Assembly (NCBI RefSeq): GCF_900638305.1
Contig: NZ_LR134506.1
Location: forward strand, 868,001 to 932,000
Direction of reading: 5' to 3'
From: Porphyromonas cangingivalis
GTDB taxonomy: Bacteria > Bacteroidota > Bacteroidia > Bacteroidales > Porphyromonadaceae
DNA: 64,000 nucleotides
Shown here: piece by piece, positions 37,130-39,061 of the stretch
Layout of the letters: each line of letters opens with the position of its first letter
Position numbering within the stretch: the stretch's first letter is position 1
Made by a program: the position numbers and the translations under genes
The notes under the pieces: generated by a model
What the model was told of the DNA's origin: nothing
What the model saw: only the letters and a program-made list of their open reading frames with translations
Databases searched by the model: none

Positions 37130-37177
37130 CAAAAAAATACACTCTACCTAAGACCATAGCCCGTCGATAGAGTGTAT
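37130..37177 (-). terminator. Intrinsic terminator of the 16S rRNA transcript
   Basis: On the minus strand the stem ATACACTCTA/TAGAGTGTAT (plus-strand arms 37137-37146 and 37168-37177) is followed by seven T. It stands about 120 nt beyond the mature 16S 3' end and before truA. Confidence 0.8.
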
Positions 37178-37210
37178 CTGAATTATTATAAGCATACCGA
37201 ACTCAGGACA

Positions 37211-38962
37211 TTGACAAAGTAGTCACAGAGAATAATCTCTCATCACCACTGTTTCCTAAAAACTAACTTAGTCAAAAACAAGACCTCAGAGTCTCCAGAA
37301 AGGAGGTGTTCCAGCCGCACCTTCCGGTACGGCTACCTTGTTACGACTTAGCCCCAGTTACCGGTCTTACCCTCGTGCGATCCTTGCGGTGACGCACTTC
37401 AGGTACCCCCGACTTCCATGGCTTGACGGGCGGTGTGTACAAGGCCCGGGAACGTATTCACCGCGCCATGGCTGATGCGCGATTACTAGCGAATCCAGCT
37501 TCACGGAGTCGAGTTGCAGACTCCGATCCGAACTGAGATAGGGTTTGGAGATTCGCATCCTGTCGCCAGGTAGCTGCCCTTTGTCCCTACCATTGTAACA
37601 CGTGTGTCGCCCCGGATGTAAGGGCCGTGCTGATTTGACGTCATCCACACCTTCCTCGCGCCTTACGACGGCAGTCTCGTCAGAGTCCTCAGCTCTACCT
37701 GCTAGTAACTGACGATGTGGGTTGCGCTCGTTATGGCACTTAAGCCGACACCTCACGGCACGAGCTGACGACAACCATGCAGCACCTACATACATGCCCC
37801 GAAGGGAAGTCAGGCTCTCGCCAAACCGTCATGTACATTTCAATCCCGGGTAAGGTTCCTCGCGTATCATCGAATTAAACCACATGTTCCTCCGCTTGTG
37901 CGGGCCCCCGTCAATTCCTTTGAGTTTCACCGTTGCCGGCGTACTCCCCAGGTGGATTACTTATCGGTTTCCCTTGGGAGCATACCATATATCGCATACT
38001 CCGAGTAATCATCGTTTACTGCGTGGACTACCAGGGTATCTAATCCTGTTTGATACCCACGCTTTCGTGCTTCAGTGTCAGTTGCGGTTTGGTAAGCTGC
38101 CTTCGCAATCGGAGTTCTGCGTAATATCTATGCATTTCACCGCTACACTACGCGTTCCGCCTACCTCATCCGCACTCAAGCTCCACAGTTTCAACGGCAA
38201 GACTATGGTTGAGCCACAGCTTTTCACCACTGACTTATGAAGCCACCTACGCACCCTTTAAACCCAATAAATCCGGATAACGCTCGTATCCTCCGTATTA
38301 CCGCGGCTGCTGGCACGGAGTTAGCCGATACTTATTCTTAGGTTACTTGCTTACAGCTACACGTAACTGCTTGTACTCACCTACTAAAGAAGTTTACAAT
38401 CCATAGGACCGTCTTCCTTCACGCGACTTGGCTGGTTCAGGCTCTCGCCCATTGACCAATATTCCTCACTGCTGCCTCCCGTAGGAGTCTGGACCGTGTC
38501 TCAGTTCCAGTGTGGGGGATAAGCCTCTCAGCTCCCCTATCCATCGTCGACTTGGTGAGCCGTTACCTCACCAACTATCTAATGGAACGCATGCCTATCT
38601 GTCAGCAATAAATCTTTCCTAAAGTCCCCATGCGGAAACCAAAGTGTATGCGGTATTAGTCCGGATTTCTCCGGGTTATTCCCCACTGACAGGCAAGTTG
38701 CATACGCGTTACGCACCCTTACGCCGGTCGCCACCAAGATTAGCAAGCTAATCTCGTGCTGCCCCTCGACTTGCATGTGTTAAGCCTATCGCTAGCGTTC
38801 ATCCTGAGCCAGGATCAAACTCTCCATTGTTGAAATAAATTTGTTTGTTGTTCCTTCAGCTCTAAGATCCGTTCTATCGTTTTTGACCTGTTTTTAAGTA
38901 AACATTGACGTGGCAATGTCGGATACTTGTCGTATCCTATATTCCCTTGTACTACTTGTCAA
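37211..38962 (-). repeat. Leader/trailer complementarity of pre-16S rRNA (processing stem)
   Basis: TTGACAAAGTAGT (37211-37223) is complementary to ACTACTTGTCAA (38951-38962) with one bulge, and GTCAAAAAC (37271-37279) to GTTTTTGAC (38879-38887). These flank the 16S gene on both sides and would form the long RNase III-type processing stalk. Confidence 0.7.
37297..38830 (-). rRNA. rrs: 16S ribosomal RNA
   Basis: On the minus strand the gene opens with GAGAGTTTGATCCTGGCTCA and ends with GGCTGGAACACCTCCTTTCT, including the anti-Shine-Dalgarno CCTCC. Universal landmarks such as the 515/530 loop (plus-strand CCGCGGCTGCTGGCAC), the 785-806 site (GACTACCAGGGTATCTAATC) and the 1390 region (GACGGGCGGTGTGTACAA) are present. 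Length is about 1534 nt, normal for Bacteroidetes, with no insertion or truncation seen. No tRNA-Ile, tRNA-Ala, 23S or 5S follows: a terminator and truA come next. Confidence 0.97.
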
Positions 38963-39030
38963 TCTTTAATTGTCCTTCGTTCAATATGTCTATGATCTCG
39001 TTGTTATTCCTTGCTCTTGCAAAGTGATTG

Positions 39031-39061
39031 CAAAGGTACGAAGATTTTTTATTCTCGCAAT
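39031..39061 (-). promoter_or_regulatory. 16S rRNA promoter
   Basis: On the minus strand: ATTG (39058-39061), a 19-nt spacer, then TACCTTTG (39031-39038). It lies about 200 nt before the mature 16S 5' end; the leader between holds the processing-stem half and an AT-rich stretch. Confidence 0.7.

Follow-up and report, generated by a model that had tools for sequence, protein, structure and literature searches.

Why bacteria hold 16S and 23S rRNA genes in one operon is still debated. In the covered parts of a survey of 15,521 complete genomes, 14,677 are classed as linked, 270 as mixed and 574 as unlinked (PMC7761764), which bears out the remark in the first-pass annotation of the locus described here that unlinked rRNA genes are known in some bacteria. 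Unlinked genes are associated there with symbionts whose rRNA copy number is low, 1.5 on average, whereas five 16S genes were found in the genome analyzed here; the words Porphyromonas, Bacteroidetes, Bacteroidota and Bacteroid are absent from the main text (PMC7761764). Two bacteria with a separate 16S gene are described in the covered parts of another paper: in Helicobacter pylori the 16S is encoded apart from a 23S-5S unit and RNase III matures both, and in Borrelia burgdorferi 16S formation is unaffected in an RNase III mutant (PMC8708148). Porphyromonas gingivalis, probably a relative of our organism, has four rrn operons whose arrangement was checked by PCR, and the covered parts of that report mention no solo units (PMC5771137). 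Among the literature matches listed, supplementary tables aside, no report describes split rRNA genes in Porphyromonas relatives.

The genome studied here shares features with each of these cases. As in the unlinked/mixed class (Brewer et al., 2020, as cited), some of its 16S genes lie more than 1500 bp from a 23S gene and others are linked, and like P. gingivalis it has several rrn loci. It resembles H. pylori in having 16S apart from 23S-5S, and differs in that linked operons stand alongside the solo units and that cleavage is a prediction here. Unlinked and mixed rRNA genes are established; what this genome adds is an anatomy of unusual clarity, together with relatives that form a useful series. 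We consider it very probable that the 16S gene in the window, by which we mean the whole 64-kb stretch analyzed (bases 868001-932000 of a chromosome held in one contig of 2,404,857 bp), is a working stand-alone transcription unit. The genome has three such solo 16S units, its rRNA operons being partly dissolved.

The solo 16S locus

The window contains a complete 16S rRNA gene on the minus strand (37299-38830, genome 905299-906830), which matches the Rfam model RF00177 from end to end (model positions 1-1533 of 1533, 1494 bits). RNA-family and tRNA searches found no 23S, 5S, tRNA-Ile or tRNA-Ala in the 64 kb, and the only other RNA-family matches at or above the gathering score are a tRNA-Tyr (11471) and a tRNA-His (35570). 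The first-pass annotation had described both the complete gene and the missing partners correctly. Next downstream is truA (36347-37114, minus strand), with its start set at an ATG (the listed ORF opens 18 bases earlier, at a TTG), and the divergent upstream neighbor is a pstS-like gene (39409-40224, plus strand); both are ORFs that carry the names given in that annotation. The canonical order 16S-tRNA-23S-5S is absent at this locus and present at 370 and 1359 kb.

The motif GATCATAGACATATTGA, which we read as boxA, has 10 exact matches genome-wide and precedes every one of the five 16S and five 23S genes; allowing two mismatches adds four further sites, and a reversed control pattern has none in the genome. 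The copy in front of the window 16S, a candidate antitermination site, occupies 38981-38997 (minus strand). Upstream of it by 41 nt lies a promoter-like motif, TAnnTTTG (TACCTTTG, 39031-39038, minus strand), which we take to be the Bacteroidetes -7 promoter element. TAnnTTTG stands 41-71 nt upstream of boxA in all eight transcription units, which are not independent and form about four homologous groups, and its background is 167 in 12600 windows. It is absent within 260 nt upstream of boxA at the two linked 23S genes, which lie inside an operon.

Behind the gene, a terminator-like hairpin with a U-run (37131-37179, minus strand; hairpin 37135-37179, U-run 37131-37137) precedes truA, where the first-pass annotation had placed an intrinsic terminator. 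The 53-nt stretch that holds it folds at -21.0 kcal/mol (z -5.56), a value equaled by 0 of 200 shuffles. All three solo 16S units have such a hairpin with a U-run, different in each; z is -6.19 at 201 kb and -2.52 at 2279 kb, where the hairpin is weaker and 6 of 200 shuffles are as good. By sequence, the promoter-like motif and the terminator-like hairpin of the window locus are candidates for the promoter and terminator that an H. pylori-like independent unit would have of its own.

A leader-trailer stem is a further feature of H. pylori-like independent 16S units, and the window 16S has one. RNAcofold pairs the leader (38854-38993, minus strand) as 5' arm with the trailer (37188-37298, minus strand) as 3' arm of a predicted processing stem of 89 pairs. 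The interaction energy is -41.9 kcal/mol, compared with a mean of -12.2 (SD 4.0) for 100 shuffles, none of which reaches it. Two shorter complementarities noted earlier between leader and trailer are both present, one exact and one with a single bulge, and both are parts of this far longer stem. For all five 16S loci, the observed pairing is matched by 0 of 100 dinucleotide shuffles. Three classes can be told apart among the five leaders (the 201-kb copy; the 905- and 2279-kb copies; the two linked copies), and within the genome a leader pairs with trailers of its own class at -39.3 to -43.6 kcal/mol versus -15.3 to -28.5 kcal/mol with those of other classes. The motif, the stem and the hairpin agree with the original proposal that this 16S would be an independent unit with its own promoter, processing stem and terminator.

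rRNA genes of the chromosome

The chromosome holds five full 16S genes, at 201750 (-), 369995 (+), 905299 (-, the window copy), 1359430 (-) and 2278961 (+), and five 23S genes, four of them full, at 372125 (+), 823605 (-), 1355936 (-) and 1848039 (+), and a fifth with a readable start at 2366683 (+) that runs into a masked stretch. Five of each is a minimum because the genome search is incompletely sensitive, the same search detecting 16S in 9 and 23S in 10 of 14 control genomes. Each of the four full 23S genes is followed by a 5S. After the masked stretch of the fifth come the tail of a 5S and a terminator, and the spacing from boxA to terminator is 3628 nt there versus 3630 in the two other solo 23S units; we therefore rejected the reading of this copy as a degenerate 23S.

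Two sets form linked operons in the order 16S-Ile-Ala-23S-5S, with tRNA-Ile(GAT) and tRNA-Ala(TGC) in the spacer; the other genes stand as solo units, three of 16S and three of 23S-5S (one with its 23S partly masked). Taking more than 1500 bp from 16S to 23S as unlinked, the window copy is unlinked by a wide span, the next same-strand 23S lying 78,797 bp off; for the other two solo 16S the distance is 86,176 and 1,247,774 bp, and for the linked copies 597-598 bp (start and end of the fifth 23S were extrapolated for these values). The window 16S is solo, as first described, but it is not a single odd gene: three of the five 16S are solo and two linked, which makes the genome one of mixed type. 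Cellulosilyticum lentocellum, which we take to belong to a different phylum, is a similar case. It too is of mixed type, according to the covered parts of its description, with linked and unlinked copies in one genome; those parts give no account of leader and trailer anatomy (PMC8178347).

The solo units part from the linked operons at defined points. In solo 23S leaders, similarity to the linked spacer starts two bases ahead of boxA, with different sequence in front of that point, and solo 23S genes with their leaders are 97.6-99.2% identical to the linked ones; solo 16S units diverge from the linked sequence 6 nt past the end of the 16S. The 905- and 2279-kb solo 16S units have 1883 aligned nt in common at 99.3% identity (blastn; 37184-39064 of the window, minus strand). 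A transposase-like ORF of 302 aa lies at 28000-29044 of the window; similar DNA occurs near both other solo 16S loci (L013, L019), and also twice in one of 20 sampled stretches (L193); a connection between solo 16S genes and transposases was set aside. A MITE-like element of 243 nt, with inverted ends seen by eye, is found in L013 (5325-5567) and L020 (11270-11511), 83% identical.

The spacer tRNAs bear on the two linked operons. The genome has 45 tRNA matches, of which 44 were read, and the single unread match, at 84 nt, is as long as a tRNA for Ser, Leu or Tyr. Among the 44, tRNA-Ala is represented only by the two operon copies, both TGC, and tRNA-Ile(GAT) likewise by two; tRNA-Ala(GGC) is not among them. 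The two linked operons may persist because the only tRNA-Ala and tRNA-Ile(GAT) genes found sit there. In G028, a single-contig genome from another genus of the family with 44 of 49 tRNA matches read, tRNA-Ile(GAT) and tRNA-Ala(TGC) occur only beside one 16S, and a tRNA-Ala(GGC) lies elsewhere. That spacer tRNAs may hold linked operons in place fits both genomes.

GC skew was taken from 20 sampled stretches and the 8 rRNA loci. Its sign switches near 0.6 and 1.7 Mb, although 2 of these 28 stretches (196 and 2390 kb) run against the pattern; fourfold-site skew follows gene direction and gives no clear signal. With a skew-based origin near 1.72 Mb, 9 of 10 rRNA genes are co-directional with replication, and the solo 16S at 201 kb runs against it. 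A DnaA-domain gene lies at base 328 of the window genome (G000), about 0.7 Mb from the skew-based origin. Were it to mark the origin, six of six solo units would be head-on, an idea we dropped because the skew gives nine of ten co-directional.

Split units could also be kept for regulation, their separate promoters tuning 16S against 23S or giving variant ribosomes. Promoter regions do differ among solo 16S, solo 23S and linked units, and the 16S copies have a few distinct positions, among them copy-specific letters of the window 16S at 16S positions 77 and 1008. These differences are few, however: between any two 16S bodies, 1-9 of 1532 positions vary (solo versus linked 1-8; the window copy versus the two linked ones 3 and 5), and the four full 23S at 11-21 of 2897. 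The numbers, five to five, with an estimated 16S:23S gene dosage of 0.87-0.96, also look balanced, and we regard a regulatory reason for the split as unlikely.

Relatives and the integrity of the assembly

The first-pass annotation had named mis-assembly as the main alternative, a linked operon broken at a collapsed repeat with its 16S joined to the wrong flanks. Repeats of rRNA genes are a classic cause of such errors, and resequencing corrected three of four rrn in a published P. gingivalis genome, as the covered parts of that report describe (PMC5771137). Within the window genome, the early departure of the solo trailers from the linked spacer, their match to their own leaders in class-specific pairs and the balanced counts found all contradict this explanation, and the relatives add to the case.

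G007 is the closest same-genus genome compared (truA 73% identical, pstS-like gene 82% identical), a draft in which the support comes from contig ends. The contig that carries truA breaks off within a homologue of the solo 16S trailer, terminator included; the terminator stem is kept, with one U-A pair changed to C-G on both sides (from the alignment, pairs assigned by eye). A second contig ends in a leader of the 201-kb type with the first 16S bases, and a third in a solo 23S leader, preceded by the gene that also precedes the 2366-kb unit (78% DNA identity over 1131 nt). The G007 pstS contig ends about 240 nt before pstS, short of the leader. With the trailer and terminator next to truA, and a solo 23S leader, all conserved in G007, mis-assembly is unlikely.

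How old the truA-16S neighborhood might be is a separate matter. Homologues of truA are present in 12 of 12 genus genomes (the window genome included, many of them drafts), and 16S and 23S matches in four each. We discarded the idea that the adjacency is an old feature: a 16S match stands at 0 of 80 named truA loci, whose flanks reach up to 5 kb, are often cut by contig ends, include one titled Porphyromonas and may leave out records of the window genome itself, and among the 11 other genus genomes only G007 supports it.

Solo units free of gaps are present in two other family genomes. G011 has a gap-free solo 16S with no tRNA or 23S in the following 6.6 kb; a hairpin with a U-run comes after it (-21.3 kcal/mol for the stretch, calculated without a shuffle control), and then an ORF that we take to be DNA polymerase I. 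Both ends of one G011 contig carry 23S-type leaders that have the promoter motif but no spacer tRNAs, the 23S genes lying off the contig, and the genome also has a 16S-tRNA-23S operon whose 23S is interrupted by a gap or mask. A cobalamin riboswitch lies near a 23S-type leader at a G011 contig end (L153, 579-815). In G028, all three 16S and three 23S-5S found lie apart in unmasked stretches, and the 16S that carries tRNA-Ile and tRNA-Ala is then followed by a hairpin. The imperfectly assembled 16S of G002 likewise precedes a U-run hairpin, whose stretch folds at -28.7, and the 8 kb after this 16S contain neither tRNA-Ile nor tRNA-Ala nor a 23S.

Linked operons occur in other relatives. G012 and G037 have two of two copies found linked in each, and G023 three of four, the fourth having spacer tRNAs before masking. 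One of four is fully visible as linked in G017; two more show spacer tRNAs and the start of a 23S before masking, and the fourth is unclassable since its downstream side is masked. G006 has one linked 16S, and its second was rejected as solo because the start of a tRNA-Ile precedes the masking. Linked operons, which the first-pass annotation gave as the norm for relatives, are seen in these five genomes; other family genomes carry solo copies. Among the ten family genomes listed with at most ten contigs, four have a solo 16S (G000, G002, G011 and G028), five show linked or masked copies only and one has no match; a search of 38 genomes from a second genus of the family, with few candidates scored in each, gave 16S matches in 18 and 23S matches in 16. 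As far as found, the family spans linked, mixed and apparently fully unlinked rRNA genes.

The preference of a leader for its own trailer is weaker in the relatives than in the window genome. In G006 and for the solo leader of G011, the own trailer has an advantage of about 5 kcal/mol; the G011 linked leader pairs better with the G011 solo trailer than with its own, and in G002, a draft with a duplicated 16S end whose trailer was taken after the second copy, another trailer pairs better than the own one. All trailers were limited to 130 nt, so that part of the longer G011 and G006 trailers is excluded.

On this evidence we consider mis-assembly very improbable, and the split-rRNA arrangement is real and conserved, and probably functional. 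Equally remote is the idea that the window 16S is a dead or silent duplicate, as its full model match, its close agreement with the linked copies, the intact promoter-like motif, boxA, stem and hairpin, and a leader and trailer that have diverged from the other classes yet still pair all speak against it.

Proposed working and origin of the solo units

Read as a stand-alone unit, the window 16S would be transcribed by RNA polymerase starting at the TAnnTTTG promoter and then passing the boxA-like antitermination site. The transcript would consist of leader, 16S and trailer and would end short of truA, at a terminator belonging to the unit. The long stem would then form between leader and trailer, and an RNase III-type enzyme would cut it, freeing a pre-16S without 23S that could enter ribosomes; the RNase III independence of 16S formation in B. 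burgdorferi calls for caution about the cleavage step. The 23S would come partly from the solo 23S-5S units, in which the spacer of the linked operons, from boxA on, would serve as leader behind a new promoter.

For the family, we tentatively suggest, with confidence slightly short of even, that operon dissolution is underway, with shared joints, a tRNA tether, and solo units that multiply and move. Operons would part at two recurrent joints, one behind the 16S stem and one immediately ahead of the 23S boxA, joints that would already make 16S and 23S separate modules, so that the 23S half would need only a promoter and the 16S half only a terminator. The spacer tRNAs would act as the tether: the mixed genome would keep two operons for them, and G028 would keep them on one 16S. 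Solo units would then multiply and move, each retaining its co-evolving stem.

Amplification across 16S-ITS-23S would fail to detect solo copies, which in a genome such as G028 means all the copies found. With both arrangements in one genome, and a family that runs from linked to unlinked, matched solo and linked copies could be compared in the same cell for their transcription, processing and assembly.
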